Shown one piece after another: positions 41,473-64,000 of a DNA stretch of 64,000 nt; positions within the stretch are counted from its first letter, which is position 1; each line of letters opens with the position of its first letter. Below the pieces are notes generated by a model. It was not told where the DNA came from. It saw nothing but the letters and a program-made list of their open reading frames with translations, and made no database searches. The position numbers and the translations under genes are program-made. The stretch is from Allacma fusca (taxonomy: Eukaryota; Arthropoda; Collembola; Symphypleona; Sminthuridae): assembly GCA_947179485.1 (NCBI GenBank), contig OX359246.1:44371632-44435631 (forward strand), written 5' to 3'.

Positions 41473-41664
41473 TGCTAAAAGGCAAGGATAAAAATTGCAA
41501 TAAAAAACAATAAATAACCTCCAACACCTGGTATCATAATATACAGATTTGGTAAGTTTAATACTCTAATCTTACCACCCTTGGGTGTTTAATTTGGAGA
41601 AAAGTTAATAAACACTTGAGGAGACCAAAATGGTTACGTGTGGACACGACGCACAAAATGAAGA

Positions 41665-46859: not shown

Positions 46860-47439
46860 TGTTACGTTGCTATCACCCGGGTATTGATGTTGTGTGGGTA
46901 ATAGACAATGTAGCCTAGGTTCGGGTGTTCCATCCCCTGAATTCCTGGAATCCGATGTTGTTGGAAACGCATGAATAAATGGAACTTATTGAATTCTGTG
47001 TGTAGTTCGTTTATTTAACTTTGGGCCAATTTATTGTTCCTAGAACTGATACAATTTGCACTGAACAATTAACATTTAACACAAAATAGACTTGAATTCT
47101 GAATCTCTTCTTCTCATGAAATCTCCCGATTTCATGTCGCCCCGCTTGCTACCTTTTGAGCTCCATCCCGGAGGGAATGGACTCTAGGTGCGGCTCCTCT
47201 TGATGTTGCTTGCTTGAAATCGAGATTAGAACTTGTACTTAATCTACGTTTCTTAATCTAATCCTAAATCTTATTCCTATTCTTATTGTTTATTAAATAA
47301 TCTGCATCATTTCCTTTCCTTTACTTATAATTATGTTTGGTCAGCGTTTGGCGTCACGTAGCCTTTGCTTACGACCTTCCAAACTATTTGCTGACTTAGA
47401 TTATGCTTATTTTACTCTATTTATAATATATCCGTAACA
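46860..47439 (-). repeat. 3' LTR of the giant element, 580 bp
   Basis: In element sense it starts TGTTACGGATAT and ends GCAACGTAACA, so the termini are TG...CA with a 7-base inverted TGTTACG/CGTAACA. TATAAATA lies close to the start and AATAAA occurs twice in the second half. It abuts a polypurine tract on its inner side and the BEL/Pao relic on its outer side. Immediate flanks do not match each other, so it is not a solo LTR. The 5' partner is beyond the window. Confidence 0.82.
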
Positions 47440-47449
47440 TTCCTCTTCT
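47440..47449 (-). promoter_or_regulatory. Polypurine tract
   Basis: AGAAGAGGAA in element sense, directly before the LTR's TGTTACG. This is the primer site for plus-strand DNA synthesis in LTR retroelements, and it fixes the orientation of the element as minus. Confidence 0.75.
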
Positions 47450-49972
47450 GGGTAATTGTCGACCTCGACAATGTCATCTGTCGAAGTTCAAGTTCATATT
47501 ATTTATAATTATACTAATTTTGTTACCGAACTTTGTAGCTTAATCTTGGTCGTAATGGTAATGGCTGGTCTTTGTAGCAAGGTCGTAATGGTATTCATGG
47601 GCATGTTATTGTTTACGGCATTTCATACAATTTATCATACATGTTCATCATCATATGTGTATGTGCTTGTGTAATGCTGTACAATATTTGTTGGTATTAT
47701 TGTGTGTATACTTTTTAATGGGGTTAAATAACAATCTTTGCAACAATTTATAGGTGTTACCTTTATAATTTGCATATACAGTATTTACATGGAATACATC
47801 ATTATTTACATCATGATTTAGCTGGATTTCTAATGTTATCTGTCATATCTAAGATTAGAAACATCGTAGCAGAATTGAAAATTTTGTGTACACATGTTTT
47901 GAAAAGAATTTGTTTGTAGAAAAAACTGGCAAGAATACTTGAAGGCAGATATGAAACATTTTCTGTTGTTCCTATTCGCATTTGATTTCTAATTTTTCTG
48001 ATACCCAATTCTAGTTGTTGCAACATTGTGACTGCTGTCAAGTTCTGTTGTTACTAGAGTAGTGGCCTAATGTATTGTTAAAGGTGTATTTAATTATTAA
48101 GCTTGTAAAATCCCGTGAGTTTCCTTGTAAAACAATTTAATATTTTACAGACGAATTGTTGTGGGAAAATTTTGTCAGAAAAATGTTTGATTATCTGATA
48201 TCTCCACCAGAAGTGACGGCTCTGAGCGCAAAAGCGTCACTCACTAATACAAAATTTTTGTGGAAATAATTGTTCTTGGGTGGTTAGATTAGGAATTATG
48301 TCCATCTCATGCACAACTGTTGGCAGTTTCACCAAATGTGAAAACATCGTGCTCTATGAAGTTCAGTAAGTAGTTCTTACTACTCCATAAGACATAAAAT
48401 CATATTGTACCGTGAATTATTTCCTCAACTGAGATGGGAATGTATTTTGGCGATAATCAGAAATATATATATATACCTTGATCTGTAAAAAAATCCTATT
48501 TGATGAAATGTGTCAGATTTGTAGGCCAAATTTTCTGTTTAATTTCTCTTTACAAATTATATTAAGAAAACACAATGTGTCTTGCGAAATTATGGAATGT
48601 AACAAGGCTAATAAGACGTTTGATCTTTTAAGATTTAATATTTTTGTTCTTAAATGTTGAATTTAATCCTTGTGTATAATGAACGAAGTGAATTTAATGA
48701 TTCCGTAAACCGTTGGAATCCATCACCGAAACTGTAAGAGATAATTTTTCTAGTGATAACTATTGTCATCTCTGATGTGTACTAAAATTGTAAAAAGATA
48801 TCAACACTGTTTGCAATGTAGATCCTAGCTGCCTTTAACCTCGCGATTTAAAATACGAAACTGCTCTAGCATATGTGGATGACATATTAATCATGTCATG
48901 TAACTGTTTCCATTACTGTAATTTTCTTACTTTTTATATTTTTATTTAAAGTTCCTCCTACCTATTCGTAGTGTGTATTTTTGTTTATTTTTCTGGTCCC
49001 TATAGGATATCTAGTGCTCCTAGGATCCTTCAGATCTGGGCACATTCATGTCAACTTTCGTTTGAAATGCGAAACATTTTGTAAGTAAATAATTTAGTAA
49101 AATGAACTGTATTACAGAAATTCTTTTGAAAGAATCTATCCTTTGGACTTCTGTTTTACTTAATCTGTCTTTCTAGGTACCTAAAATATTTTTATTAGCA
49201 CATCTAGCTAAGTAGACTTTGTTGAACTGAAGCTAAAAGGTAAACTGATCCTGATCGTAGAGAACTCGCTTATACAGGGTTCTGATTTTTGCTGGAAATT
49301 TGTTATCCCGCTCATCCCAAGCGATGAGTAGGTTAGAAATATAAATTTATCCTTCTCATATGGAGTTGAATAACCTAATAAAGTCGCAAGGCATTACAAT
49401 CATCACTCATTGGCTGTTGAGTGAACAAGCCTCAAGGAATTATGATATTGCCTAAAATTTTTGGTTAGAACTGAACCTTATCTTGAAACATTTCTCGTCT
49501 CGTTAACAATTCAGACTTTGTTTTGAAAACATAGCCTGACTTGATAGTGTTGAAGTCCAATAAAAATCTAATCACTGGAATCAATGGGGTGGAAAGAAAA
49601 TTGGAAAGAAAATGGATAATAAATCCATCGAGACACGAAAGATATGTTGATTTGAATCACATAATCTTTAAACTATTTTTCCTTTTACTCCTATTGGGAA
49701 TCTGCCTCTTTAACTAACTTGAACTTTTCGTTCGTTATTTGAACTTTGTTATTTTCATTGCATTTTTTATATTTTTGTGTTATATGAACTTGGTTTTCTA
49801 TCTTTTTCTCTCCTAACCTTATCCTACTTATAACTACTTATTCTATTGTTTCTCTTATCCTATCTTATAACTAATAAATATTTTTAAATATTTTTCCATA
49901 CAATTTTATGGTTTTGCATATTTTTCTTCGTTGTTTTCTTTCTTGCGTTGCTCCTTCCCGGTTGGGTCGGTG
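47450..49972. other. 3' untranslated part of the giant element
   Basis: About 2.5 kb between the last ORF and the polypurine tract, with no long reading frame on either strand. A short plus-strand patch near 48870-48905 reads as an RT-like YVDDILIMS box but has a stop just upstream. The region may be a long 3' UTR or contain an older insertion. Confidence 0.45.
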
Positions 49973-50719
49973 TTATAGTTGTACGGTTGCTCTGGTTGTG
50001 TGTCTGCTGGCCTGTGGTTGTACGTTGGGCCTCACAATTCTGCATCCGACTAACTGCTCTACAGAATTTTGGACTAATGCTGCCGTGTCTGCAACATTGT
50101 CTAATTCTCTCTCGTTCGTTTTTTGTTGATCTGATTTTCTTTTCTGCGTTCGAATTCGGTACAGTATTACTGTGAATATAAATATCACTACTGTGGTAAT
50201 ACAACCGAATGAACTAATAATGACTACGGTGTAATCCGTGTCTGATGTTGGAACCTCATTGGATTTCCAATCAATTTCGTTGAATTGTTCCATCCAAGGT
50301 GGTCTGCTATCCCTCATCATGGTGGGCTGTTGGTTTTGTATGAATTGTTGTTGGGGTTGTATAAATTGTTGTTGGGGTTGTAGTAAAGCCATTTGTTGGT
50401 TCCTCTCCATGATTCTCTGGGCTTCTACGTTTGGATCGTTCGGGTCGTACTGCACTACGGCTAGTTTCCCGTCATCTTTGTGGTGTAGTATATGTACTAC
50501 TGGGTCCTTTTGTGATAACACTGATGCTGTAATGGCTCCGCTTCCGACTGTTAAGGCTGGTACCATGTAATTTGCGAACCATTTTCCGACCTGGGTTCCT
50601 AAGGCTGCCATCAGTGGTCCTCCCCATGGTTCTGGACTTGGTTGTGCTATCGGTCTGGTTTCGGAAACGTCCATTGCAATTAGAGTTATTGCAAGGCTCA
50701 AAAGATTTTGGCACTTCAT
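49973..50719 (-). CDS. Unrecognised membrane protein of the giant element, 248 residues
   Basis: The ATG at 50719 is chosen because it opens a signal-peptide-like sequence (MKCQNLLSLAITLIAMDVS) and lies six bases after a strong splice acceptor (pyrimidine-rich stretch ending CACAG at 50725). Next is a hydrophobic stretch near residues 45-66, a Gln-rich part with QPQQQFI repeated twice, and one clear transmembrane helix (VVIISSFGCITTVVIFIFTV, residues about 157-180). The cytoplasmic tail is basic (RIRTQKRK). The layout of signal, ectodomain, single anchor and tail resembles a small type I envelope-like or accessory glycoprotein. No family is recognised and no fusion peptide is obvious. Expression from a spliced transcript is inferred from the acceptor. 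Confidence 0.72.
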   Translation of the reverse strand: MKCQNLLSLAITLIAMDVSETRPIAQPSPEPWGGPLMAALGTQVGKWFANYMVPALTVGSGAITASVLSQKDPVVHILHHKDDGKLAVVQYDPNDPNVEAQRIMERNQQMALLQPQQQFIQPQQQFIQNQQPTMMRDSRPPWMEQFNEIDWKSNEVPTSDTDYTVVIISSFGCITTVVIFIFTVILYRIRTQKRKSDQQKTNERELDNVADTAALVQNSVEQLVGCRIVRPNVQPQASRHTTRATVQL

Positions 50720-51292
50720 TTTCACTGTGTGAAAAAAACTTTTTGTGTAACTGTTCTTTATCCTTGAGTAGTCTCAAGTATTTGAGCTCTCTGTGGGTGT
50801 TGAGGTTATAATGAGTACTCTGTTTCAAGAGTCTCGTATTTATAACAATTAATTGTTTGTGTTTTCATCTTCCGATTGCGAAAGAGAATTCTTTTCTTAA
50901 TTCCGATGTTGTAATCCGTATGTCCCACTTCCGGTGACATAATCTTTTGTTAGTATTTCTATCCTATGAACTCTATAAAATGTGTTAGTAAGTAAAATAT
51001 TTTTGTTTTGTTTTCTATTTTGTATTTATTTTTATTTGTTTTTCTTTTCTAACTATTCTGTTATGGTGATCATTATGTAACATCCGCCGTAATCCCGATG
51101 GTTGATGCTGCATAAGATCTTAAAAATGTTTTATCGTAGATCCTCTCTTGCGAAATAATCTACACTTTACATTCCCTTCGGGAATTTCTTCCGTCATCAG
51201 GTAATTTGGCTTCTGCTTTTCCCCGCTAGTTCTCTTTCTCTTTATACCATGACCTGGATGGAATGGTCAGGTTATTATCCTCTGTGATGTTT
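50720..51292. other. Spacer between the last two ORFs of the giant element
   Basis: About 570 bases of element DNA. It contains the pyrimidine tract and AG acceptor (minus strand, 50725-50740) used to place the start of the membrane protein. Open frames here (for example 50472-50828, -) look like shadows. Confidence 0.5.
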
Positions 51293-54200
51293 TTAATCGT
51301 CTTCCTCGGACGGCCCTCTGAGGGTGCCTGTCTCCTCCTCTCCTTCCGCTAGTGTTCGGAATGATATGACTGCGAATCTATTCTCGGATAAAATCTCCGG
51401 GTCCCATCTTGCACGTGATGATCTTTCCCATAACTGATCCATTAGCCTTCTGTGCTCTACAGGGTTTGTTATGGAAAGATAGCTGGTTCTTTGTTGTGTC
51501 ACTGGGTCTCTCCTGAGTTCTTCCTGCAAAAAATCATGTTCGAGGTCTCGAAAAACTATTTCGATTCCTGTTCGACCTCTGAGGGTTCGTATGAGATTTA
51601 TTATGTCAGGTTCATCTGGTCTTCCATCAATGACAACTGATCGCCATTGTGCTGCTTGGAATCGGTCTATTGCACTTGGTATCATGTGTATTGGTGTTAT
51701 TCCTGGTCGTCTCTCATTTCTTGGAGATAGTTGGTATGGTTTGTAACTTGGTCCGTCTCCACGGTTGCTAATTTGCTCCCGAATCCTATGAAAATGTTCT
51801 CTTTGCCAGATTCGTATCGTGACAAGTTCGTTTAGGTCTCTGAAAGAACCTGTTTTCCGGGGTTGTCTTAGAGTGGCTACTCCTCCTTTTAGTTTTCTAG
51901 CGTATAGGGTAGTTGGCTTTTGGCCTTCTCCCGCTAGTTTCATTGCGAATATCCAGTCTTCCCATTGTCCTAGTTCTTCCTCTATGTCGTCGATTGGATT
52001 GGGTTGACTTCCGCTACTCTGGTTTATTGCTCCGAATTGTCGCCACTCCTGAATTGCCGCGTCCTGATGATAAAGAGTTATGATCCTTTCGGTCATACTC
52101 GCAAATTCTTGAAAACTTAGCATGTGTATTGGTATACTTGCTAGTTGCTGTAAAGCTTTCTCTCCACGTCCGGTGATGGCGTCTCCTCTGAGTAGGAAAC
52201 TATTTATCCATATTTCTTGCTCTCGCCAGGTTGGCTGAGTTCCTATGTCAAACCACATCTGAGTAATCAATCGGCGTAGCTCGGTTCCCGTGAGCCCTTG
52301 CATTACTCCCTGATGTTCCCGACATGTTAGATATGTTGGTACTTGGTGATTATCAATACCTCTCTGACCATTGAACAATGTTGTCCAAAGTCTCGGTATC
52401 ATTTCCCCTGGTGAGATGTTCATGTCTCCTGCCATTGTTTCCAAACGGGTGTTTTCCATTGGTACGTTTCTTCGACTTTGCCCGTATAGGATGAGCAGGT
52501 CTCGCTCCCTTGGGTCTAGTCTGCGATAATCTGTGGGATGGTCCATTGCATCATACAGCAATGCCCTTCTTTCCCGGATTAATTCTCCGTGGTTGTTGTA
52601 ATCTATTCCTGCTTGGTGTTCTGCGTATTCTATATTTGATTCATGAGCATCTGTTCTGGGTTCGCTTAAGGTGCTAAGCGCCCTTTGTAACTGCTCGAGT
52701 CGTAGTTGAGGTGGTTGAGTAGGTTGTTGGTGGATGTCAAGTCTCTCGATAAATGTCTCCCTGTACATTCTGTTGAGCCATCTCACTAGATTTTGCTCTG
52801 GACTGTTGGTTGAACGATGTGAGATATTATATGTTGGAAATCTCTCTGGGTCGATGGTAGATTTCTGGTAACAATGAGGACACATTGTGGCTCTTTCCCT
52901 GGTGTCCATGTTGTTACTGAAGTAGTTGGTTCTCCTGGAGTACTGCTCTTCTATCCGGCCATGGCGTTCGTCTCCAGATATATCTTCCATTACTTGGTCC
53001 GGAAATCTTGGCGGTGGTGAGTGGTCCAATGGGTCATTGGCCCTTTCCATCATCTTTCTCACTTGAAGTCGCACCGGATCCAGTTGGCTGTATAGCTGTG
53101 TCTTGTTTGGGTTGGTAAAGATGACTATTTCCGCATCCTCATCTTCCCAACTTGGTGCTACCATCCATCCACGGATTCCTATGTAAAATGATACGTGAGC
53201 TAAATCAACGAATCTTACATCAGGTGAGTCGGGTTGTGCCAGTGGATCTTCCGGTGCTGGAGCTGGTGGGTCTTCCTGGCGTTCTTCCTTAAACTCCACC
53301 TTTCGTTGACGTTGTCTAGCTCGTCTGGACTTCAGGTTGTCTTCAATGGGTGGTATGGATTGTCCTGCTATCGCGGATGGTCCGGGTGATGGTGACCTTG
53401 ATCCTCGTCTGTCCCTCGTATCGTTGAAGATTACAGTCCTAATGGGTGAGTATACTCTAACCCTGGGTCGTCCAATTTCTGGCTCTGGACCTCGTCGTCG
53501 TCCTCTATACTGGAATGTACAGTTTGGAGCATTGTTTCTTCCGTACAGTCTATCCAACTCTGGTCTACTCCTTCGGATGTATTGTACAGGTATATCCTTT
53601 TGTCTTTGCCAAGCTTCATGTGCTGCTAACTTGGTCTTTGGTCTTACGGGTGGCTTATGGCCGTGTTTGAGTGGGCAGTATTCACATCTGGTCTTCACCC
53701 ACTTGCTGTTTGTATCGTTGTCTGACGAACTATCTATCTGATGTTCTGATGGTGGCTTCTCCTCGTCGTCTAAGACTTCCTCCTTGATTATATTCAATGA
53801 TGTCCCGGCTCCTTCTTCTTGAGCCTCCACAGCTTGTTCCGTTGGCACAGCCGGTTCCTCTTCTGAGGCCAAAACCGGTCCTTCTGCTCCCTCTGTCCTT
53901 CGTGGGTGGCTTCTTCCGGGGTCGCCTTTCCGTATTGGGTCCTGGTTCCCTCCGAAGTCCATTCCAACGGACGTGCCAATATAGATTACCATTCTGAGGG
54001 TAAATCGCACAAGCTGTTGAATAATCCCTGTAGGTCTTCCTGACGATGAGTGAGCCTCCTCTTCCTCAATCCGTGCCAGCATAAGCTGTAGCTGTTGTTT
54101 CAAGAATTGTCTGCTATAACTGACGGGTGACCATGCGTTGGTCGGTCCTACGAATGCCTCTCGCCTCTGTCGTTCTCTGGCTGCCCGGTCCGACGTTCGC

Positions 54201-57200
54201 TGGAAGAGTGGGTGGGTTTGTGAGACGTTGGCGTGTGCCTTTGTCTCCCATCCCTTGAGTTCTTCTTCTTCGAGATGGTCAACTCCGTTGTATATGTGTG
54301 GTATGAGCAAAACTATCGTCCAGTTTGCTTCCGTGATTGTTGTTGCTAGTGCGAAGTGTACAACTTCACCTATTGCAACTTCCTCGGTGGGGTGAACATA
54401 GTCTTCCCCTTTTGTTATACTGTGAGGGTTGTTTTGTATCTGGCGTTGTAGATTATTTATCTGGTCTTTTGCCAAGATACTTCGCCTGGTACGTGTATGT
54501 GTGTTCTTAAGTCCCAAAATTTTGATGACTTTGCTGATGAATGTTCCGTATTGTAACTCGTACTCCTTCCAAATTTCGTATTCGGTATGTAGTGGTAACG
54601 GGATTGTCTTTGTGATTAAGTCCATTGCGACTGATTGTAAAGTTCTTGTTGTTAGATGGTAACCGTCACGTATTGCTTGTGACATTAACCAAATAGCTTG
54701 CGGTAATTTCCGTTGGTCTCGAATCTTTTGTCGTCGTTCCTCTTCCTCCGAAGTGGGTTCAGGAGCATGTCGTCGCTCTCTCCCGTTTTCGGATTCTTCC
54801 GCGTCCACTTCTTTGCCTAAAGCTTGATTCCATACTTTGGCTACAGAAGTTTCGTTGAGGTAATGAGCATTCCTTTGGATATCACCTGGTAATGCTATTA
54901 AGTTCGGAGCTATTTCTGTTGCTGTTGGATCTTCCTTAAGAAAATCTTCTAACTCTTTTTCCTCACTGGCGTTGACGGGCATTATCATCCAGATGGGTCG
55001 TTGGTCTGGTAGTTGGGACTCGATGAGTACCCAATCCTGCGGTATTTTGACTGTTTTTAGTGGTTTATTCCACCTTCTGACTGCGTCTAGGATTGAGCTG
55101 GTGTAGACTCCTACTATGACCATTCCCGTGGTACACATGCCTACGGCTCCTGCTACTCCTCGTACTACTCCATTCTGCCAGAGTCGGTGCGCTGTGGCTG
55201 AACCGAAGCCTTGGTACCGTACGGCTGAATTTCCGACCGGTGGGCATTCCCGTTGGCCGTAAGGGTCATAGTGTCCGATTTCCTCCGAGTCTTCCTTATT
55301 TTCAAAGTCTGGGCTGACATAGTCAAAGCCTCTTGGACTGGTTAGATTCTCGGTTTCCAATCGGGTCCACCACTGGTAATGTGATGCCCGGGTTGTTGGA
55401 TATGGTCCGTAGTGTCCCGTCAATTCCTTTCTCAAGTTGGATTGTCCTACAGCAGATGTAATTAAACCGAACATTAATAAAAATGATAACCAACTGTTAC
55501 CGAGGTAAGGTATGGGTCCTCCTCGTCTTCCTCCTCCTCCACGTCCCATCTCCGGCGTGTGAGGTGGCGTTTGAATTGATGAGGTTGACTGTCTTGGTTC
55601 CTCGTCGTCACTGAGGATGACGGTTCCGTCCTGGGGTGAGTTGGCAAAATCAGCCAATGAAAGCTGGTGGTGATTAACAATTTCCGTTGTATCCGAAGTT
55701 ATTGATGATTCTCGATCTTTAGGTCTTCTCTTTGATCTGATCACCTCAAAATCCTCTGAGCTACTGCTCTGGTCGTTGTGTTGTTCGGCTATAGATAGCT
55801 CAGATGTTGCAACTTCGACGTTTTGTGCTGGTGAGGGTGGCATTTCCGTTGCCATTCCTGTTGGGCTTGCAGTTTCTGGACCATTTCGTTTTTCCTGAGC
55901 GAGCAAACGCTCTAGCTCTCCGGATGTGGCTGTTGACGTTGGAATGTTCGTTGGTTCAAAGTGTGCTGGAGGTAATTCTCTGGTTTGAAGGTCTATCTTT
56001 GACTCAGCACATACCAAGTGAAAATCGTTATCATTTCTCCACTTTATCCATTCCTGGCGGTGGCGTGCTAATTCCTTCATTAATCCTTCCTTTTGCTTTT
56101 TCGCACTGTCTGCGTTGACATTTTGTCTGGCAAGGTTGCGGATGATTTCCCCGAGATCTTTTATTCGGTTTACCATCTCCTCGTGCTTCCCTGCTTTCCT
56201 GGAGTCTTCTCCGATTTTTAGGATGTTCGACTGCCATTTCGCCGGTGGTTGGGTTGGTGCTGTGTTCTGTCCGAATAGCTCTAAGATGGTCATCTGAGCC
56301 TCCTTCTTGACCTTCTTCTCCTTCTTTGCACGTTTCTTTGCATGATGTTCACATTCCTGTTGTACCACTGGTCCACTGTCGGTTGCAATTACTTGTCGTA
56401 CCCTTTTACATCCTTTCCTACTACAGGTTTGGATGGGTACTGTCTCTTCCTCTTCTGAGTCTGAAGAAGATTCATTGGCGGTATCTCTGTCCGCTGTTGT
56501 AGCTGTGTCCGTGGCAGTTTCCTCGCTCCATAATGTCACAGCTACTGATGGTGGAGTCACTACAGGTACTTCCACTGGTCTCTCTCTTTGAGCGATGCAA
56601 ACTGCACGCTGTGGTTTAGGTGGTTCACTATTAACCGGTATTGTTGGCGGTGGCATCTTTGTGACCGCTGTGTAACTTAAAGCTGGAGCTGCTATGGGTG
56701 CTGTCAGTATTGACTCCCTCTCCATTCGATCCTTATAATCTTTCGCTGCTGGTGATAGAAATGGTGAAGGCGGTGGGGTTGACTCTCTCCTGCTCCTTGA
56801 CCGCGCTGGACTGTCATAGCGGCTCCTTGACCTGTCGTCCTCCCGTCGCTTCTTCCTCTCCGATGACGACTCTGTCTCCCGCTTCCTGGTCCTGCTGTCC
56901 TTAGAGCTGTGTCTTTCCCTCGAACTTTCTCTTGAGCTTCTAGGATGCCTGCTCGAACTTTCTCCATTGGTGATGGCCCGCCCGCGGCCTCTCCCGGCTG
57001 GTACCATATGTGCTGAGTAGGCTGCGAATCTCGGAGGCTCCCTTCGTCGGTCCGCCAAGTTCCCTCGTCTCAGATCGGGTCCGTAGTTGTCGTCAATGCG
57101 TCTATTGATTCTATGGGCTACGTCCTCGACCTGTTCTTCATGTTGCGGTAACCATTCACTAATCTCGGGGATGTTGACCCGGGTAACTCCACAAATAGGG

Positions 57201-57862
57201 TCGGCTCCCATCACTTTCCGAGATGAGCTTCGACTTGTCTTGCCTCGTTCATACTGAAGGCCTGGAGTAAATGCCCATGGATCATGGTCATAATCTCCCC
57301 TTGGATTCTTTTGTCCGGGCACGTCCTTTTCTTGCCTGTAATTTTGGACTAGCCATGGATCATCTGGCTGTCTATTACGTGTTCTACAGATAGGAATCTG
57401 TCGTCGTATGGGAGTGGGATTAAATTCTTGCCCTTTAAAAAGGTAAACAAGATCATCTGGCGCTCGCTCGCCTCTGTCAACTTCCACCTGCTGCTCCGGA
57501 AAATTTATTGACCCGCAAAAGTGCGGTTCTCGTCGTAATATACGATAATCTAGTGTTAACTCTCTAGGCTTTCTGAGAGCTCCGATGAGTACTGAATGAG
57601 TTACGATTTCTCGTCCATCTCGTCCTTGGATGATAATCCTGTGGGGTAACTTCCCGTCTACTCTGAGAACAACTTCCAGTCGTCCCGTATCTGAGTTTGG
57701 TAAAATTTTTGCTTGTGGTATTTCCACTTCAGTTTGACTCACGTATTGGGTCCAATAACGTGGTCGATCGTCGTCGTCCCTGTCGACGGCGGGTAGGGCG
57801 TCTTGGCGTGGAGTCTCGTTGGTTCGAGACCCGGATGCACGTGACCCTCTGTTCTCTGACAT
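51293..57862 (-). CDS. 2189-codon ORF of the giant element, unknown product
   Basis: One uninterrupted frame of 6.57 kb. Its ATG (57862) directly follows a splice-acceptor AG (TTTTATCTTCAACCAG). Residues 1-780 are charged and disordered, with an Arg/Ser-rich tract near 290-380, SPAR/SPF motifs and a Cys/Lys patch (CSRKGCKRV...CEHHAKKRAKK, about 485-520). A signal-peptide-like helix (SWLSFLLMFGLITSAVGQS) lies near 785-805. Further hydrophobic segments lie near 896-925, 1180 and 1283-1300, with a basic RTRRS site near 1122 that could be a furin-type site. The C-terminal ~890 residues hold CEYC and CPHC cysteine pairs and a Trp-rich helical region. One reading is an envelope-like segment embedded in a larger polyprotein. 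I cannot assign a family; the absence of stops is the main evidence that it is expressed. Confidence 0.7.
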   Translation of the reverse strand: MSENRGSRASGSRTNETPRQDALPAVDRDDDDRPRYWTQYVSQTEVEIPQAKILPNSDTGRLEVVLRVDGKLPHRIIIQGRDGREIVTHSVLIGALRKPRELTLDYRILRREPHFCGSINFPEQQVEVDRGERAPDDLVYLFKGQEFNPTPIRRQIPICRTRNRQPDDPWLVQNYRQEKDVPGQKNPRGDYDHDPWAFTPGLQYERGKTSRSSSRKVMGADPICGVTRVNIPEISEWLPQHEEQVEDVAHRINRRIDDNYGPDLRRGNLADRRREPPRFAAYSAHMVPAGRGRGRAITNGESSSRHPRSSRESSRERHSSKDSRTRKRETESSSERKKRREDDRSRSRYDSPARSRSRRESTPPPSPFLSPAAKDYKDRMERESILTAPIAAPALSYTAVTKMPPPTIPVNSEPPKPQRAVCIAQRERPVEVPVVTPPSVAVTLWSEETATDTATTADRDTANESSSDSEEEETVPIQTCSRKGCKRVRQVIATDSGPVVQQECEHHAKKRAKKEKKVKKEAQMTILELFGQNTAPTQPPAKWQSNILKIGEDSRKAGKHEEMVNRIKDLGEIIRNLARQNVNADSAKKQKEGLMKELARHRQEWIKWRNDNDFHLVCAESKIDLQTRELPPAHFEPTNIPTSTATSGELERLLAQEKRNGPETASPTGMATEMPPSPAQNVEVATSELSIAEQHNDQSSSSEDFEVIRSKRRPKDRESSITSDTTEIVNHHQLSLADFANSPQDGTVILSDDEEPRQSTSSIQTPPHTPEMGRGGGGRRGGPIPYLGNSWLSFLLMFGLITSAVGQSNLRKELTGHYGPYPTTRASHYQWWTRLETENLTSPRGFDYVSPDFENKEDSEEIGHYDPYGQRECPPVGNSAVRYQGFGSATAHRLWQNGVVRGVAGAVGMCTTGMVIVGVYTSSILDAVRRWNKPLKTVKIPQDWVLIESQLPDQRPIWMIMPVNASEEKELEDFLKEDPTATEIAPNLIALPGDIQRNAHYLNETSVAKVWNQALGKEVDAEESENGRERRHAPEPTSEEEERRQKIRDQRKLPQAIWLMSQAIRDGYHLTTRTLQSVAMDLITKTIPLPLHTEYEIWKEYELQYGTFISKVIKILGLKNTHTRTRRSILAKDQINNLQRQIQNNPHSITKGEDYVHPTEEVAIGEVVHFALATTITEANWTIVLLIPHIYNGVDHLEEEELKGWETKAHANVSQTHPLFQRTSDRAARERQRREAFVGPTNAWSPVSYSRQFLKQQLQLMLARIEEEEAHSSSGRPTGIIQQLVRFTLRMVIYIGTSVGMDFGGNQDPIRKGDPGRSHPRRTEGAEGPVLASEEEPAVPTEQAVEAQEEGAGTSLNIIKEEVLDDEEKPPSEHQIDSSSDNDTNSKWVKTRCEYCPLKHGHKPPVRPKTKLAAHEAWQRQKDIPVQYIRRSRPELDRLYGRNNAPNCTFQYRGRRRGPEPEIGRPRVRVYSPIRTVIFNDTRDRRGSRSPSPGPSAIAGQSIPPIEDNLKSRRARQRQRKVEFKEERQEDPPAPAPEDPLAQPDSPDVRFVDLAHVSFYIGIRGWMVAPSWEDEDAEIVIFTNPNKTQLYSQLDPVRLQVRKMMERANDPLDHSPPPRFPDQVMEDISGDERHGRIEEQYSRRTNYFSNNMDTRERATMCPHCYQKSTIDPERFPTYNISHRSTNSPEQNLVRWLNRMYRETFIERLDIHQQPTQPPQLRLEQLQRALSTLSEPRTDAHESNIEYAEHQAGIDYNNHGELIRERRALLYDAMDHPTDYRRLDPRERDLLILYGQSRRNVPMENTRLETMAGDMNISPGEMIPRLWTTLFNGQRGIDNHQVPTYLTCREHQGVMQGLTGTELRRLITQMWFDIGTQPTWREQEIWINSFLLRGDAITGRGEKALQQLASIPIHMLSFQEFASMTERIITLYHQDAAIQEWRQFGAINQSSGSQPNPIDDIEEELGQWEDWIFAMKLAGEGQKPTTLYARKLKGGVATLRQPRKTGSFRDLNELVTIRIWQREHFHRIREQISNRGDGPSYKPYQLSPRNERRPGITPIHMIPSAIDRFQAAQWRSVVIDGRPDEPDIINLIRTLRGRTGIEIVFRDLEHDFLQEELRRDPVTQQRTSYLSITNPVEHRRLMDQLWERSSRARWDPEILSENRFAVISFRTLAEGEEETGTLRGPSEEDD

Positions 57863-58055
57863 CTGGTTGAAGATAAAATACTTTGCAGTAATCTGATTTA
57901 ATGATTGTGTACGTACCTACGTATCGGATTCTCCTTCGACCTTGTCGTATGAGGTAACTAATGAGATTTATACGGTCTCCAATCTTGAGATCAATCTCGC
58001 TTTGACCAAAACTAACACAGTTTGGTATTGTTGTTAAGTATCTGGTGGTGCTCAT
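57729..58055 (-). CDS. Small ORF between pol and the 2189-codon ORF
   Basis: 108 codons unspliced, from ATG 58055, just after the pol stop (58062) and in the same frame as pol. Its ATG overlaps the stop of the preceding micro-ORF as ATGA. The first ~45 residues are compact and mixed (IDLKIGDRINLISYLIRQG); the part beyond 57920 looks like intron or overlap. It may be only the first coding exon of the 2189-codon protein. No homologue recognised. Confidence 0.45.
   Translation of the reverse strand: MSTTRYLTTIPNCVSFGQSEIDLKIGDRINLISYLIRQGRRRIRYVGTYTIIKSDYCKVFYLQPDVREQRVTCIRVSNQRDSTPRRPTRRRQGRRRSTTLLDPIRESN
57863..57920 (-). other. Candidate 58-bp intron in the giant element
   Basis: Minus-strand GTAGGT at 57920 and TTCAACCAG ending at 57863. 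Removing it would leave codon phase 0 on both sides, placing the small ORF that starts at 58055 in frame with the 2189-codon ORF. Without removal the two overlap in different frames by 134 bases. The splice is inferred only. Confidence 0.45.
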
Positions 58056-58315
58056 TCGCTTTCAGACTGATCCAAATCTTCTCGTCCTTTTTCGGGTACG
58101 AGTTGGGTATCGTCTACTTTCTCCGGTTTCTTCAGCGCTTCCTTCTTGAGGTGTTTCCCCTGCTTCTTTAACTCCCGAATTTCCTCCTGAACTTGTTGAA
58201 GTTCCTGTTGGATTTGTACTCGTCGGGTTCTGAGGATCGCTGACTGTCTCTCGGTGATCTGACGTATTCGTTCTAATTCTCTCAGGCCTTCTGGGACTGT
58301 CTTTCGTGATGACAT
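58052..58315 (-). CDS. Coiled-coil micro-ORF 5 (87 residues), overprints pol tail
   Basis: ATG at 58315, +1 frame relative to pol. A long amphipathic helix with Leu/Ile at heptad spacing (about residues 11-58, for example VQIQQELQQVQEEIRELKKQ) is followed by an acidic/basic tail ending SESE. Its TGA overlaps the next ORF's ATG in an ATGA, an arrangement used for coupled termination and reinitiation. Function unknown; a dimeric or trimeric helical protein is the simplest guess. Confidence 0.5.
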   Translation of the reverse strand: MSSRKTVPEGLRELERIRQITERQSAILRTRRVQIQQELQQVQEEIRELKKQGKHLKKEALKKPEKVDDTQLVPEKGREDLDQSESE

Positions 58316-61300
58316 CCAATGACCTGTCCTCTTCTGTAGAAAATTCTACAGGTGTATTGATGACTTCTGTATGCGTATCTACAGAGTCTTGTCCGTTTTC
58401 GTCTGTTAGAACTTCCTGGAACTCTTCGTCCTCTTCTGTAGAATTTTCTACAAGGACTTTTCGTTCCTTGGGTTGGTTGAATTGTTGGCTAGCCTGTTGA
58501 CTGCTCGAATTTGATTTTTCAGAGTATCCTTGACTCTCTCGGTTTGTTCTATCTCTCTCTCCACTCGTGCTATTGCCTCTCTGATCCGACTGCCTTGCGC
58601 TTGTAGGCTTTGCAGTGTCTGTCTCTGAGCTTCGCTGGGTGGGCTTGGTGTTGAGTTCCACAAAGGGGGGCTCTTCCAAGGCCTTTTGCTCATCTGAGTG
58701 AAGCAATTGTGTCGAAATATCCGCCTCTACTGAGGGCCAAGGCACCTCAACTCGTGAAGTCGCTTCTGAAGGTCCTTGATTTCCTGTTTCAATTTGTCCA
58801 GGTCTCCCTCTCTCTGTCGTAGGCGGTTGATTAATTCTCGGTTCTGATCCCGAATAGTGAGAATCTGTCTCTCTACACTCACTGCTGTCGTCCACATCAA
58901 GTTCTGTTGGACTTATCCCTGAACTACTTAATTCTTTAAGTGTTTTAAAGTCACTCTCGTCAATAAGTGGTTGAGTTTCTTCCTCACCTTCGGATATTAC
59001 ACCTGAGCTGTTTTCAGCTGGTTTATTAAATCCGAAATATCTTCTTTGGCTTTCTGGGTTTCCTGGAGGGTTGCTCTGTGATCTTTCTCCAGTTGTTTTA
59101 GTTTGCTCAGCACTTCCTGCTGTTCTGAAATCTGATGTAAAATTCTTTGTTTGAGACGAATTTCGTTCTCCTTTGCCTTGATTAATTGGGCTTGTAATCC
59201 CTGGATGATTAAGATTAATTCTCTCTTTGTATGTGTCATCAGTTATTCTGGTTGCACCTCGTCTTGTGATTTCTCCACTTGTGGGCAGAAACTTGACGTT
59301 TGAGGTTTTGTTTCTTGAATTAGCAGTTCTAAAGCTGCGATTCTCTGTTTGATGTACTCTTCCTGAGCTGCGTACTTCCAAATTTTTATTTGGACTAAAT
59401 TCCTCTGTTGTTTCAATCCCCTTATCTCGTCCCTGATTTCCTCTAGGGTGTTCATTTACTTTCGAGCGAGTGAAATATGGGTAATTTTTATCTAAAAATT
59501 CCCTATTATCTGAATAATTTCTTGACGAAAGTTTTCTTACTTGTGTACTTGACTGCTTAGTAGTACCTTTTCCTCCTTGAGTGTTATCTTTGTGTTGATG
59601 TAGTCCCTGGTTTGATTTCCCTCCTTCACTTGGGGTGATTTGAGAGTGTGAGTAATTTTTGTCACAAAATTCTCCTCTCTGTTGTACTGGCTGAGCTTGG
59701 TCACTTGAACTGTCTGAGCAATTTTCGGATGAAAATTCTCTAGTTATTTCCTTGGTTTGAGCAGGTTGAACTTTAAAAGTCACCTTCTTGCTCGTGGTTG
59801 AACTGTTATCTGAAGTGGTCGAACTCTTAAGAATTGACCGTGGCTGACTCACTGTAACTTTTCCACACTTGTTCCAATTTCGTTTTGTCACCAATTCCAC
59901 TATATCGGAATCTAAATCGTAACTATACTCGTCCTCAATGTGTTCTCGCTGCAGGCACTTCTTAAGCCTTTCCACATGGACTTTCTGTCTCTTTTTAGAA
60001 TTCCTAAGGTCTTGAATGATATAATTGTCTTTGGCTAAAACTTCTATGACTACAAAGGGTCCTTTGTAAGGGTGAAGAAAGCGTTCGCTCTTTCCAACTA
60101 TCCTGGTCGGTGTAAAGACTCGCACTGTGTCTCCGATGTTGAACTTAACGAACCTTCTTTTCCTATCATACCAATCCTTACTGTAGTCCTGACGTTCCCT
60201 TATCTTAGCAATAGCTTTTTCTATTCTAGTAGTGGCTTCCTCAGCACTCATAAAATTTGTGTCGACGCTGCTTAAACACAGTTGTAAGTTAAAATCATAT
60301 ATGGGTTGTCGCCTAAACATCATAAAATAAGGAGTTTCTTTGGTCACGTCATGGTGACTGCAATTGTAAGCATTTATTAGAAACGGTAAACAACTGCACC
60401 ATAATGCTTGCTCTTTTTGAGTATAATGACTCAGCATAGTGCTTATAGTCTGGACCATTCTTTCTATTTGTCCAACACTATTATGTCTTAATGCTGTAGA
60501 TGTAGAATGGTTCATGCCTAATCTTCGAAGTAATGCTTGAGTGATTTCCGCTCTGAATTCGGATCCTCCGTCACTCAGCAAGTTTTTAAACAGTCCGTAT
60601 TTTAAAACTACCTTGTGAAGCAAAAACTCTGCTATCCTGTCAGCAGTTTTATCTGGAATTGCTTCTGCGATCACGAACTTTGAAACATAATCTTGTGCGA
60701 TTATAATGTACTTATTCCCTTTTATGCTAATTTGCATGGGTCCAATGAGATCAATACATAATGCATCTCCTACATTTTCTATCCTGATTGGATGAAGTAA
60801 TCCTGCTGGTTTCGTTCTCATGGATTTAGCTGCTTGGCAACTTTCACATGACATGACATATTTTGCTACTGAGACGTTCATTTTTTTCCAAAAATAATTT
60901 CTGTTGAGTCTATGAAGCGTTTTCTGGAATCCTAAATGTCCTCCGCATAGGATCCCATCATGAGCTTTTGATAGTAGGAAATTTCTAAGTACTCGGGGTA
61001 CGTATAGCTTACGTCCATCTCTATGTACTATAGTAAGAATCCCTTCTCCATCAATTTCATATCGGCTATACTTCTCTTTGTCCTTCCAATTTAACGTATG
61101 CCGCATCTTTATTTTGTCCATGATGAATAAACAATCTGGATCGTCCCTTTGCATCTCCTGCATGTTATGTTCCTCTAACATAGTAACTTGCTCTTCATCT
61201 TCAAGTATCCTACACACAGGCTTGTGTGTGGAAAAAGTATCTTTGCTCCCTTCGCACCCCTGTAGTGCGTGAGCTCCTGGAACAAATTTTATTGCTCTAT

Positions 61301-64000
61301 TTAATGACATGTCCTCAGTTTTCTGAGCGTCTTTATTCCTTTGGTCTTCATCCTGTGAAAGACATAGTGAATGTGACGTCTTTTTACTTGTCACAACACC
61401 CTGCCCTTTCAGAGGTTGAATCTTCCATGATCTTCCATCGGTGAATCTAATTTCACCTTCCTGGATATCTTTCCTCAGCTCTTCTACTGTGGTCGCCAGT
61501 AGAGAGAAATTATTTTCATCATCTGGATTCTCTGTGGATATGTACGTATGCGACGGCGGAGGGTTTTTGTTTTCCTCCGACTCGCATGCTGCAGATCTTC
61601 GTTGGATATTTTTCATCCATTCATCCACATCTCTGGAAATCTTCATCGCCTTGATCCGCTGTGGGGTATCAAGATCCGGATTGTTAACATATCCTGGACT
61701 TTCTGCATCAGGAACTTGATCTGTCTTCCTGGCAGATTGTGCAGTGTATGTCTTCAATTGCGAAATAACTTCCTGTTTGAGCTTCCATTCATCTCCTTTT
61801 GCTGACGTTGGATTCCTCCAAGTCTCTTCAAATGCAAACCATTTCTCCTCATCTGTGGGATCGTGTCCGGATGGAATGTGATTTTCCACACTGAACTTTT
61901 CCTGTTTCAGTGTCGGTCGGTCGCATTCCTTTTGGACGTTCCTATCCTCATCTGTGAGTACCAATTTGTTGGCCTCTTTAGGACTGGCGGGATGGGTGGG
62001 CGGGAAAGTTGAGGACTTCTTTTGTGTAGTCTCAGCTGCCTGGCTCACCAGATCCGCTGTTTCCTGATTCTTCAAAGTTTGGTCATGGACTTCCGTCTCG
62101 GAGTCTACAATTATGGCTGGTGGTAGATGTACAGCTTTTGTTTCGGCCTCACCTGCCCCATCCATTGTTGTGAATTCCATTATACTCCGTGTCATCTGCC
62201 CTAGGGATTTTGGTGAATCAGTGTCAACCTTCCCATTGGCTGGACTTTGTGACGTTGTTGCTGTCGTTGACTTTGGAGTAGGAGACCAATCAGTCCCCAT
62301 TCCAATGTCAGTGATAGTATTTCTGTCAAAATCTTCATACTCATTTTGAACTTGAGCTTTCTTTGGCGATAGAAATTCTTTCATATCTAATTCATTTATT
62401 GTTGCATTGTGACGCTCTATATCTTGTATTAGTTTGAGATTTTTCTCGTAGATATACTCATTGGTATATTTCCAGGTATTTTCATCCTCCTGTGGATCAT
62501 CCTCCCGAAATTCGTGGATTGTGATGATGTCATCTACGGATAATTTCCATTCTTTGAGCGCTGAGTAGCTGTGTGTAACTTCATTAACACAGCTCTTTAC
62601 GCTCATTGTATGGTTCTCCCAATCCGTTTCCTCCAAATTCGGTTGAGGTGCTAAAATTTCCACTTGTGATTTGACTTTACGCCTGGGTTGACCTTTCAAT
62701 CTTCCTGACCATGGATTTTGTCGCTGTGGGATTATGGCTTCCTCTTCGTCTGAGGATTGACTTTCGTCATCCGTCCAATATTTTCCCTTATAGCTTTCCT
62801 TGGTCGTAAGGCTGGCTGCACACGCTGGTGGTGGCATTATTATGTTCCCCTGAGGGATTTGTTTTTGCTCTTCCAAAGCAATCTTGTGCTCTTTGACCGG
62901 ATCTGGGTCAAATTCGATCACTCGGTCCTCTGTATCTTCCAAATCTTCCTTTGTATAGGGTAATGGAGCTCTGGATAGAAAGTCTGCATCCAAGTGTAAT
63001 GCTCCTTTCTTGTATGTGACTTGAAAGTCAAATTCTTGTAGTTTATTTACAAACTTACTTATTCGGTGGTTTGGATCTTTTTGTAATTTTAAGTAGCACA
63101 ATGCTAAATGATCTGATCTGATTAAAAATTTTCTCAAATAAAGATATTGTCTGAATTTGCGAACTGCATATACGACTGCTGCTAGTTCTAATTCTGTGAC
63201 TGAGTAATTCTTTTCTGACTGAATTAGTGTCCTTGACGCATAAGCTATTGGATGTTCTCCTCCATCATCTTGAAGTACACAGCATCCTAGTCCTGAGATT
63301 GATGCATCTGTATGCAGTATGCAATCCAACTCTGGGTTGAAATGAGCTAGAACCGGCTGTGTCATTAATTTGGTTTTGAGAATGTTGAAGGCATTTGTTG
63401 CATCTGCACTCCATTGGAAGCATCTTATGCGTTTTTGACCTTCAGATTTCCCTTTACTTCCAATCCATGATTGTGAGATGGGACTAGCAATTTTTGCGAA
63501 GTCCTTGATGTACTTTCTGTAGAAACTGCATATTCCGAAAAATCTTCTTGCTTCTGTTTCAGATTTTGGTACTGGCACATGTCTAATAGCGTCCACCTTT
63601 GCAGGATCTGGACGGGTGCCTTCCCTGGATACCTTAAATCCTAAAACAATTACTTCAAAATATCCGAATTTGCATTTCTTTGGCTTGAACTTAAAGTTCT
63701 TGTTGCTGGCTCTTAACATCAATTCTTCGAGTGATGCTAATTTGTCCAAAAGATGAATTCCATAAGAGATTACATCATCTAAATATACCATGGCTCCCCT
63801 AAATTTGAGTGAGCCCAGCATTTGATCTGCTGCTCGCTGAAAAGCTGACGGTGCAATCTTGACTCCCATAGGTAGTCGTTTGAATGCGTATAATCCATCC
63901 TGTGTGATGAAAGAGGTTATAATTTGATCATCCTCGTGTATTAATAGTTGAAAGAAGCCTGACTCCATGTCAAGCGTGTCGAACATTGCAGATTTTCCAA
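58062..64000 (-). CDS. Pol of the giant Ty3/gypsy-type element (RT-RNase H-integrase), 5' partial
   Basis: The frame is open to the window edge, so the true start is outside; residues here count from the Met at 63986. RT motif A (FDTLDMESGFFQ), FKRLPMGVKIAPSAFQR and the catalytic YLDD (residues 68-71) are present. RNase H runs about 215-335 (LHTDAS, TELELAAV, IRSDHLAL). Then come about 640 residues of low-complexity, acidic spacer. Integrase starts near 985 with the HHCC finger (KAHDG...GGHLGF...CESC), then the DDE core (CIDLIGP, LLSDGGSEF, GQIERMV) and a GPF/Y module (HPYKGPFVV, about 1310). All catalytic residues are intact. The last ~600 residues are disordered, with EF..NYS-type repeats and two VE(N/F)STEED repeats, overprinted by five micro-ORFs. 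Spacer and tail are far longer than usual for the family. Confidence 0.9.
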   Translation of the reverse strand, partial: GKSAMFDTLDMESGFFQLLIHEDDQIITSFITQDGLYAFKRLPMGVKIAPSAFQRAADQMLGSLKFRGAMVYLDDVISYGIHLLDKLASLEELMLRASNKNFKFKPKKCKFGYFEVIVLGFKVSREGTRPDPAKVDAIRHVPVPKSETEARRFFGICSFYRKYIKDFAKIASPISQSWIGSKGKSEGQKRIRCFQWSADATNAFNILKTKLMTQPVLAHFNPELDCILHTDASISGLGCCVLQDDGGEHPIAYASRTLIQSEKNYSVTELELAAVVYAVRKFRQYLYLRKFLIRSDHLALCYLKLQKDPNHRISKFVNKLQEFDFQVTYKKGALHLDADFLSRAPLPYTKEDLEDTEDRVIEFDPDPVKEHKIALEEQKQIPQGNIIMPPPACAASLTTKESYKGKYWTDDESQSSDEEEAIIPQRQNPWSGRLKGQPRRKVKSQVEILAPQPNLEETDWENHTMSVKSCVNEVTHSYSALKEWKLSVDDIITIHEFREDDPQEDENTWKYTNEYIYEKNLKLIQDIERHNATINELDMKEFLSPKKAQVQNEYEDFDRNTITDIGMGTDWSPTPKSTTATTSQSPANGKVDTDSPKSLGQMTRSIMEFTTMDGAGEAETKAVHLPPAIIVDSETEVHDQTLKNQETADLVSQAAETTQKKSSTFPPTHPASPKEANKLVLTDEDRNVQKECDRPTLKQEKFSVENHIPSGHDPTDEEKWFAFEETWRNPTSAKGDEWKLKQEVISQLKTYTAQSARKTDQVPDAESPGYVNNPDLDTPQRIKAMKISRDVDEWMKNIQRRSAACESEENKNPPPSHTYISTENPDDENNFSLLATTVEELRKDIQEGEIRFTDGRSWKIQPLKGQGVVTSKKTSHSLCLSQDEDQRNKDAQKTEDMSLNRAIKFVPGAHALQGCEGSKDTFSTHKPVCRILEDEEQVTMLEEHNMQEMQRDDPDCLFIMDKIKMRHTLNWKDKEKYSRYEIDGEGILTIVHRDGRKLYVPRVLRNFLLSKAHDGILCGGHLGFQKTLHRLNRNYFWKKMNVSVAKYVMSCESCQAAKSMRTKPAGLLHPIRIENVGDALCIDLIGPMQISIKGNKYIIIAQDYVSKFVIAEAIPDKTADRIAEFLLHKVVLKYGLFKNLLSDGGSEFRAEITQALLRRLGMNHSTSTALRHNSVGQIERMVQTISTMLSHYTQKEQALWCSCLPFLINAYNCSHHDVTKETPYFMMFRRQPIYDFNLQLCLSSVDTNFMSAEEATTRIEKAIAKIRERQDYSKDWYDRKRRFVKFNIGDTVRVFTPTRIVGKSERFLHPYKGPFVVIEVLAKDNYIIQDLRNSKKRQKVHVERLKKCLQREHIEDEYSYDLDSDIVELVTKRNWNKCGKVTVSQPRSILKSSTTSDNSSTTSKKVTFKVQPAQTKEITREFSSENCSDSSSDQAQPVQQRGEFCDKNYSHSQITPSEGGKSNQGLHQHKDNTQGGKGTTKQSSTQVRKLSSRNYSDNREFLDKNYPYFTRSKVNEHPRGNQGRDKGIETTEEFSPNKNLEVRSSGRVHQTENRSFRTANSRNKTSNVKFLPTSGEITRRGATRITDDTYKERINLNHPGITSPINQGKGERNSSQTKNFTSDFRTAGSAEQTKTTGERSQSNPPGNPESQRRYFGFNKPAENSSGVISEGEEETQPLIDESDFKTLKELSSSGISPTELDVDDSSECRETDSHYSGSEPRINQPPTTERGRPGQIETGNQGPSEATSRVEVPWPSVEADISTQLLHSDEQKALEEPPFVELNTKPTQRSSETDTAKPTSARQSDQRGNSTSGERDRTNRESQGYSEKSNSSSQQASQQFNQPKERKVLVENSTEEDEEFQEVLTDENGQDSVDTHTEVINTPVEFSTEEDRSLDVITKDSPRRPERIRTNTSDHRETVSDPQNPTSTNPTGTSTSSGGNSGVKEAGETPQEGSAEETGESRRYPTRTRKRTRRFGSV
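58448..58693 (-). CDS. Coiled-coil micro-ORF 4 (81 residues), overprints pol tail
   Basis: ATG at 58693, same +1 frame. A Pro/Ser-rich start (KSPPLWNSTPSPPSE) is followed by a helix of about 50 residues with a heptad pattern (LQSLQAQGSRIREAIARVER). It ends at a TAG that lies in a short inverted repeat (TGTAGAATTTTCTACA). Confidence 0.48.
   Translation of the reverse strand: MSKRPWKSPPLWNSTPSPPSEAQRQTLQSLQAQGSRIREAIARVEREIEQTERVKDTLKNQIRAVNRLANNSTNPRNEKSL
58727..58897 (-). CDS. Coiled-coil micro-ORF 3 (56 residues), overprints pol tail
   Basis: A short ATG-started frame at 58897, in the same +1 frame as its neighbours, with stop TAG at 58729-58727. Residues 9-51 form a heptad helix (RELINRLRQREGDLDKLKQE, then IKDLQKRLHEL). 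At 56 residues it is easily missed by length cut-offs, yet it fills the gap in the series exactly. Confidence 0.45.
   Translation of the reverse strand: MWTTAVSVERQILTIRDQNRELINRLRQREGDLDKLKQEIKDLQKRLHELRCLGPQ
58997..59239 (-). CDS. Coiled-coil micro-ORF 2 (80 residues), overprints pol tail
   Basis: ATG at 59239, three bases after the TAA of the preceding micro-ORF and in the same frame. Nearly the whole product is one amphipathic helix (IQGLQAQLIKAKENEIRLKQ, then ISDLINQLKTAQ). The corresponding pol frame is disordered and Ser/Thr/Asn-rich, so helical periodicity belongs to this frame only. Confidence 0.5.
   Translation of the reverse strand: MTHTKRELILIIQGLQAQLIKAKENEIRLKQRILHQISEQQEVLSKLKQLEKDHRATLQETQKAKEDISDLINQLKTAQV
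59243..59455 (-). CDS. Coiled-coil micro-ORF 1 (70 residues), overprints pol tail
   Basis: ATG at 59455, directly preceded in frame by TAA, so the start is unambiguous. Residues 4-48 show a heptad pattern (LEEIRDEIRGLKQQRNLVQI, then IKQRIAALELLIQE). It is first in the series; upstream in this frame there are stops and no coiled coil. Confidence 0.5.
   Translation of the reverse strand: MNTLEEIRDEIRGLKQQRNLVQIKIWKYAAQEEYIKQRIAALELLIQETKPQTSSFCPQVEKSQDEVQPE

Follow-up and report, generated by a model that had tools for sequence, protein, structure and literature searches.

Introduction

Giant gypsy-type retroelements flanked by long terminal repeats (LTRs) have been described in plants and animals. 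As far as the sections of a 2019 review consulted here go, Ogre elements of dicots carry LTRs of 1.9-6.5 kb around internal regions of 11-13 kb, and the giant gypsy-like Burro elements of planarians have internal regions of up to 25 kb (PMC6431247). The same sections assign to Burro a first open reading frame (ORF1) of 4,873 amino acids (aa) with TRAF, BIR, BCL2, Ubi/SUMO-like, ankyrin, and dUTPase motifs and an envelope (env)-like region between gag and pol (PMC6431247). Here we describe a giant element of the springtail Allacma fusca in a 64,000-nt stretch of DNA (the window; C8:44371632-44435631 of a 392.7-Mb assembly of 91 contigs, in which all genome-wide searches were made). The element is built like an endogenous retrovirus, and its internal part of 27.5 kb exceeds the 25 kb given for Burro in those sections.

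Like Burro, it is gypsy-like, of giant size, and rich in additional coding sequence. Unlike Burro as described there, it keeps gag and pol in separate frames and places its extra genes after pol, not in a single ORF with gag, and Pfam finds none of the Burro domains in it. From Ogre it differs in having a short LTR, 0.58 kb and below the Ogre range, around a longer internal part. Ty3 has the same order of pol domains and is the best solved relative by sequence, but it lacks the 2188-aa Gag, the spacer of about 600 aa between RNase H and integrase, the three extra ORFs, and the 3.1-kb leader found here. The giant element is about five times longer than Ty3.

Extra genes in smaller elements supply further precedents. 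In the parts of one study considered here, sORF2-like proteins of insect LTR elements measure 63-107 aa with ectodomains of about 30 residues, the related comparison group of FAST proteins reaches 200 aa, sORF2 genes follow pol in 7 of 22 lepidopteran consensus sequences, and the MGxxxS/T N-myristoylation motif is missing in some Drosophila members (PMC11952523). That study is a precedent for envelope-free transmission by a membrane ORF (PMC11952523). The gypsy-type element Cer1 of C. elegans encodes its own nuclear-export factor for genomic RNA, CERV, a 517-aa protein made from a spliced RNA of five exons, according to the excerpted account (PMC10309623). No arthropod gypsy element of like design was found in the open-licence literature, which is weak evidence of novelty.

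A complete element between identical LTRs

The element spans C8:44418491-44447191 (28,701 bp) and lies on the minus strand throughout. It is arranged as LTR, 3.1-kb leader with a hairpin array, gag, a -1 frameshift, protease-reverse transcriptase (RT)-RNase H-integrase, three ORFs in the order D, B, C, a 2.5-kb 3' region, and LTR. A preliminary description of the window had recognized a giant gypsy-type element of which at least 17.1 kb was visible; the element is real and larger than that. Its features are listed below, where numbers above 64000 continue the window's numbering rightward past its end.

46856..46859, no strand: ATAT target-site duplication adjoining the 3' LTR, with a partner ATAT outside the 5' LTR
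46860..47439, minus: 3' LTR, 580 bp, TGTTACG...CGTAACA
47440..47450, minus: polypurine tract CAGAAGAGGAA, directly inside the 3' LTR
47451..49972, minus: 3' region of about 2.5 kb without a long ORF (ORF listing)
49973..50719, minus: ORF C, 248 aa (ATG at 50719, end at 49973), with a hydrophobic, signal-like N-terminus and one transmembrane segment
50725..50739, minus: acceptor-like sequence GTTTTTTTCACACAG before ORF C; pyrimidine run plus YAG in 16 of the 19 copies listed
51293..57862, minus: ORF B, 2189 aa, with an RS-rich stretch, Cys/His motifs, and hydrophobic segments at 784-805 and 898-928
57729..58055, minus: ORF D, 108 aa, a basic protein (pI 11.4) with the Arg-rich tail PRRPTRRRQGRRR; 134 nt are shared with the start of B
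58062..64000, minus: in-window part of the pol ORF, from just before the first catalytic Asp of RT to a TGA stop
58065..59921, minus: pol tail, about 620 aa, polar, of low complexity, and weakly constrained (dN/dS, the ratio of nonsynonymous to synonymous change, 0.71 over the last 432 codons)
59958..60062, minus: C-terminal domain of integrase (Integrase_p58_C, E 3e-7)
60492..61001, minus: zinc-binding domain and catalytic core of integrase (Integrase_H2C2, E 6.2e-18; rve, E 1.1e-7; Ty3 integrase, PDB 7q5b, E 9.8e-21)
61179..62951, minus: RNase H-integrase spacer of about 590 aa in which Pfam recognizes no domain
63030..63413, minus: RNase H region (Pfam RT_RNaseH_2, E 4.3e-32; RT_RNaseH, E 4.4e-31)
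right of the window, minus: start of pol, then gag (65279-71845), leader (71846-74980), and 5' LTR (74981-75560)

The LTR proposed earlier at 46860-47439 was borne out by its TG...CA ends and internal purine tract. The second LTR that the preliminary description had sought to the right lies at C8:44446612-44447191 and is no unlike neighbor but an identical copy (580/580). The 4-bp duplications flanking the element also match in every one of nine fetched LTR pairs (eight ATAT, one ATAC). TG...CA ends, a short target duplication, a primer binding site, and a polypurine tract are boundary features of Ty3/gypsy elements (Metaviridae), and all are present here. The locus very probably holds a giant Ty3/gypsy LTR retroelement that is complete and autonomous, was inserted recently, and has an inherited gene set, a judgment that concerns the element as a whole and not the roles of B, C, and D.

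With up to two mismatches allowed, the junction between polypurine tract and LTR is found 116 times in the genome, compared with 0 for the reversed pattern; the places listed all had 0 mismatches, in a list possibly sorted by mismatch. When the best 40 of 284 LTR candidates were scored, 38 fell into 19 pairs. Sixteen of these pairs have lengths of 28,607-28,808 bp, and the remaining three measure 30,071, 23,886, and 4,122 bp. The two LTRs of a copy showed no difference in any of nine fetched pairs (5,188 bp in total), as expected from the recent activity suggested earlier, and LTR identity between different copies is only 92-96%; several distinct lineages have therefore inserted very recently. 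These copies come from the top of similarity-ranked lists and are not a random sample. As the examined copies look young and intact, the size limit of reverse-transcribing elements is open to study on copies of working length. Two short LTR pairs, C12:12604939-12609060 (4.1 kb) and C12:55188626-55212511 (23.9 kb), are probably internally deleted derivatives.

Primer site, Gag, and Pol

The tRNA primer site, gag, and protease, which the preliminary description had hoped to find beyond the window, are all present there. The leader starts with TGGTGTTTCTGCCAGG, 16 nt complementary to the 3' end plus CCA of tRNA-Val(AAC), a tRNA of the host genome itself. A pattern search for this tRNA gave 14 genomic matches. 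Five of them were fetched, and all five proved to be tRNA-Val(AAC) genes; 11 of the 14 fall within one cluster of tRNA-Val-type genes at C10:38297623-38890306. Gag, 2188 aa by its coordinates, ends in a CCHC knuckle (zf-CCHC, E 2.6e-4, above cut-off), so that a capsid region, weakly matched, and a knuckle precede pol as in Ty3/gypsy elements. At the end of gag, the seven copies read all have GGGAAAC in frameshift phase, followed after 7 nt by a GGGGG-ACGCA-CCCCC hairpin. GGGAAAC is a standard -1 frameshift heptamer.

The pol frame at 58062-63998 holds 1978 stop-free codons and enters the window inside RT. Beyond the protease (Pfam RVP, E 2.9e-8), Pfam reports RVT_1, RT_RNaseH, Integrase_H2C2, and Integrase_p58_C above cut-off and rve just below it (32.4 versus 32.6 bits). 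The order is protease-RT-RNase H-integrase, and the nearest solved relative is Ty3 for both RT-RNase H (4ol8, E 1.3e-49) and integrase (7q5b); membership in Ty3/gypsy is secure. The C-terminal domain of integrase is GPY/F-like, and the long spacer upstream of integrase is unusual for a gypsy pol.

Three additional genes under purifying selection

About 10 kb of coding DNA lies downstream of integrase, as previously proposed, including the 2189-codon ORF (B) and the 248-residue membrane protein (C). The supposed series of micro-ORFs is better seen as a single 108-codon ORF (D) that is in frame with pol after its TGA stop, overlaps B in another frame, and keeps its length in all 19 copies listed. 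The frame lengths of the B region are far beyond chance: the longest frame in 200 Markov-1 control sequences had 228 codons, compared with the 2189 of B. Twenty-two of 629 candidate B copies were scored, all of them full length, stop-free, and 97-100% identical, and the C frame is likewise open in the 19 copies listed.

B, C, and D are under purifying selection. Over 20 fetched copies, pooled dN/dS is 0.117 for B (pairwise 0.068-0.211), 0.151 for D, and 0.204 for C, and reaches 0.713 in the last 432 pol codons. The two wrong reading frames of B give 1.40 and 2.08 (16 copies of equal length). Constraint extends over all 22 windows of 100 codons in B (ratios 0.02-0.26) and is strongest at residues 1701-1900. 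In D, codons 1-64, outside the overlap with B, have a ratio of 0.13, and synonymous change is reduced within the overlap. C is nearly frozen at residues 94-124 (0.01) and loose in its signal-like N-terminus (0.64).

In B, an RS-rich stretch holds 13 RS/SR dipeptides in residues 296-365 versus 22 in the remainder of the protein and is strongly constrained (ratio 0.05). The motifs CSRKGC, CEYCPLKHGH, MCPHC, CREH, and RTRRS each occur in all 20 copies, and hydrophobic segments lie near residues 784-805, 898-928, and 1170-1188. C has a single membrane segment followed directly by Tyr and then a basic stretch (LYRIRTQKRKS), a topology checked on the six commonest variants (14 of 20 copies) and shared with sORF2-like and FAST proteins. 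In contrast to these, C has 248 aa, about 160 residues before the segment, a signal-like N-terminus, and the start MKCQ in place of a myristoylation motif; no NXS/T site was found in it. Two of 20 copies (L030, L035) have an alternative C start (MEYKWYILLSL...) with different upstream sequence. Candidate splice sites, predicted from the sequence by the splice consensus, comprise a donor-like GGTAAGG near the start of all nine leaders, an acceptor-like CCAG directly 5' of B in 19 of 19 copies listed, and the acceptor before C.

B, C, and D are without recognized relatives in Pfam, NCBIfam, PHROGs, PDB sequences, IMG/VR contigs, and prokaryote genomes, and within these libraries the earlier view of the downstream genes as unrecognized is upheld. 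Pfam assigned no family to B and only below-cut-off matches to C, PHROGs and NCBIfam gave weak matches only, and PDB sequences gave nothing below E 1 for B, two pieces of B, or D. No relatives were confirmed among IMG/VR viral contigs for B, pol, RT-RNase H, or integrase, among prokaryote genomes for B, or among phages for integrase. BLASTP among gag, pol, B, C, and D (E up to 0.1) returned only a gag-gag overlap and a weak gag-pol pair (E 0.015-0.039). By eye, D could plausibly have arisen by duplication of the C-terminal domain of integrase, but 481 of 2000 shuffles scored equally high and the idea was dropped. Given the lack of recognized relatives, we therefore infer the roles of the three proteins. 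The novelty of the gene set is judged against the libraries named, and the element may already bear a name in eukaryotic repeat libraries. As it stands, B is a protein of 2189 residues that purifying selection constrains throughout and for which no library searched gave a recognized relative.

A hairpin array in the leader

New here is an array of nine RNA hairpins in the leader, common to a second family of elements. The 3.1-kb leader carries nine copies of a GCCG-N-TGAGC/TGTGC motif (GCCG followed within 2-14 nt by TGAGC or TGTGCGC), against a Markov mean of 0.014 and a maximum of 1 in 1000 simulated sequences. The coding part, the 3' region, and the remaining window sequence contain no copy, and none lies on the antisense strand. 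The flanks of each motif are complementary with letters that differ from copy to copy, pairing over a mean of 5.0 bp versus 1.85 bp for 72 mispaired combinations, a value reached in none of 20,000 permutations.

Alignment gives a hairpin consisting of an outer stem, four purine-rich nt, GCCG/UGWGC with a bulged W, 1 nt, and the stem again; the core spacer is of variable length (3 to 9 nt) and the flank spacers are fixed at 4 nt and 1 nt. Among the nine hairpins 83.3% of cells are paired versus 65.0% after shuffling, and covariation is 0.532 versus 0.161 (0/500 shuffles in each case). Three of five covariation measures beat the shuffles (0/500), and the other two, reached by 102/500 and 27/500, do not clearly do so. 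The inner GCCG/UGWGC helix is invariant, and covariation therefore supports the outer stem only. A compensatory change between copies is seen in ACATTTG/CAAATGT versus ACATCTG/CAGATGT. The hairpin was recognized through its complementary flanks; local folding of each motif with 30-nt flanks gave no single shared fold.

Run over 76.1 kb, a covariance model recovers the nine copies it was trained on and has no other match at E up to 1, and in the first 1.5 kb of nine leaders it finds 54 matches, six in each (own copy included). Rfam gave no match in the window at gathering scores, and a leader match to IS009, on the other strand and sub-threshold (25 versus 117 bits), was taken as chance. With its fixed geometry, covarying stems, and presence in a second family, the array makes a packaging or export code directly testable. 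Adjoining the hairpins is a second leader array of TTAAGTTT-type units about 15-16 nt apart (L022 2502-2725, minus), and the leader holds 16 TAAGTTT.

A second family with the hairpins, B, and C

The core pattern AAGGGCCG-N3-8-TGAGCG has 634 matches in the genome, compared with 0 for the reversed control, and the first 100 places, the ones listed and all on C1, include clusters with different spacing. One of these loci, C1:2273560-2298900, represents a second giant family with hairpins, B, and C. Its leader (C1:2273560-2275000) is 70-73% identical to that of the first family over 622 and 781 nt and has 11 covariance-model matches in 1.44 kb, all on the same strand (E 5e-10 to 3e-5). With the core alone and fixed spacers, a stem of at least 3 bp forms in 9 of 10 of its hairpins versus 6 of 90 mispaired combinations (0/20,000 permutations), the remaining hairpin having 1 bp. 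The leaders of the two families are related, and the hairpins are therefore not all independent inventions.

At offsets predicted from the first element, the same contig encodes stretches similar to B residues 404-891 (44.3% identity) and 1537-1793 (45.6%) and a C homolog (47.2% over 176 aa). From their order and spacing we infer that these pieces are one element, and B, C, and the hairpin array are inherited by both families. A third repeat, with a single hairpin (L055 106-139; C1:13579500-13579760), matches at E 4e-11, and its core spelling recurs singly along C1.

Proposed mechanism and competing explanations

Genomic RNA of the giant element would start in the LTR and be primed by tRNA-Val, a -1 frameshift would yield Gag-Pro-Pol, and joining of the leader donor to the acceptors before B and C would produce spliced messages. 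There is an even chance that the nine hairpins mark unspliced RNA for Gag and thereby serve packaging. Their recognition by the Arg-rich D for nuclear export of unspliced RNA is a more tentative suggestion: the features of a Rev-like export factor seen in D are its pI of 11.4 and Arg-rich tail only. CERV of Cer1 offers a working analogy, D being a 108-aa basic protein from a single ORF and CERV, in the excerpted account, the longer multi-exon product (PMC10309623). For C, a membrane protein acting in exit or cell-to-cell passage is a proposal for and against which the case is balanced. B may be a multidomain structural or host-handling protein, with no single role coming near an even chance. 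Taken furthest, these elements would form a retroviral lineage of giant size, possibly infectious and at present spreading through an animal host, in which Gag or D counts an array of at least nine hairpins as a genome tag and a new membrane module of B plus C moves the element from cell to cell in place of a known envelope; we regard this as possible but doubtful.

Several observations weigh against the account of an intact element with spliced, selected extra genes. The third base of the primer site is A in seven of nine leaders (TGA, not TGG), one mismatch to tRNA-Val. The capsid model Retrotrans_gag matches Gag at E 0.087, below cut-off. A clear acceptor before C is missing or changed in 3 of the 19 copies listed (L030, L034, L035), and all splice sites are consensus-based predictions for an element known from DNA. 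The 20 copies behind the dN/dS values are the most query-like and share common ancestry. Finally, the copy of the second family has in-frame stops in its B-like stretch, and that locus was read in pieces only.

Among the alternatives, one holds that the extra genes are captured host-handling genes, so that B would act on host pathways and not on particles, with the spread of the element confined to germline cells. Such a role was proposed for Burro in the review sections consulted (PMC6431247), and the constrained RS-rich stretch and the conserved CxxxxC...CxHH, CEYCPLKHGH, and MCPHC motifs of B would suit it. However, no host domain is recognized in B, C, or D (Pfam; PDB sequences for B and D), and capture, if any, would have to be older than the split of two families that are about 45% identical. 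We consider this explanation unlikely, without setting it aside.

B could instead be a giant envelope polyprotein with C as its helper, making the element an enveloped retrovirus in the style of errantiviruses. B occupies the env position after pol and has a signal-like segment (784-808), further hydrophobic stretches, several kept NXS/T sites, and RTRRS in 20 and RERRH in 19 of 20 copies; an env-like region inside a polyprotein is also described for Burro in the sections seen (PMC6431247). Against this, B shows no match to any envelope or fusion model of Pfam, either as a whole or in the tested pieces, although sequence profiles can miss such proteins. Residues 806 to 1300 contain only two cysteines, and more than 700 residues, including the RS-rich stretch and nuclear-type Cys/His motifs, precede the first hydrophobic segment. 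We consider an envelope function for B improbable.

The leader motif might also act as DNA, its copies forming an array of binding sites for a zinc-finger protein of the host. The leader of Drosophila gypsy carries an insulator that is such an array, and the nine short repeats here, likewise in a gypsy-type leader and with none antisense, are reminiscent of it. The complementary flanks with differing letters at fixed 4-nt and 1-nt spacers, the compensatory changes between copies, and the core spacer of 3 to 9 nt argue instead for RNA and make DNA sites very unlikely. Lastly, nested or adjacent insertions merged into one, with a normal gypsy pol beside unrelated ORFs, might seem to be suggested by the unfamiliar gene set and by other elements nearby (e.g., a DIRS-like one at 37-41.8 kb), but this reading is rejected as scarcely credible, since identical LTRs and matching duplications enclose everything, 16 of the 19 listed LTR pairs are of equal length, the 50-58 kb ORFs are present in the other copies (B intact in 22/22 scored), and the order leader-B-C is repeated in the second family.

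Neighborhood of the element

The DIRS-like element lies at 36925-41769 on the minus strand and encodes a tyrosine recombinase (Phage_integrase, E 4.6e-11), an RT (E 4.9e-21), and a gag-like ORF without a Pfam match, with inverted arms of 105 nt and 75 nt. The flank at 46500-46859, beside the 3' end of the giant element, resembles by eye the remains of a retroelement pol, which we take to be BEL/Pao-like. Host exons in the window are of the GH18 chitinase type at 2345-3285 (E 1.2e-17) and of the carboxylesterase/neuroligin type at 22747-23868 (E 3.6e-63).
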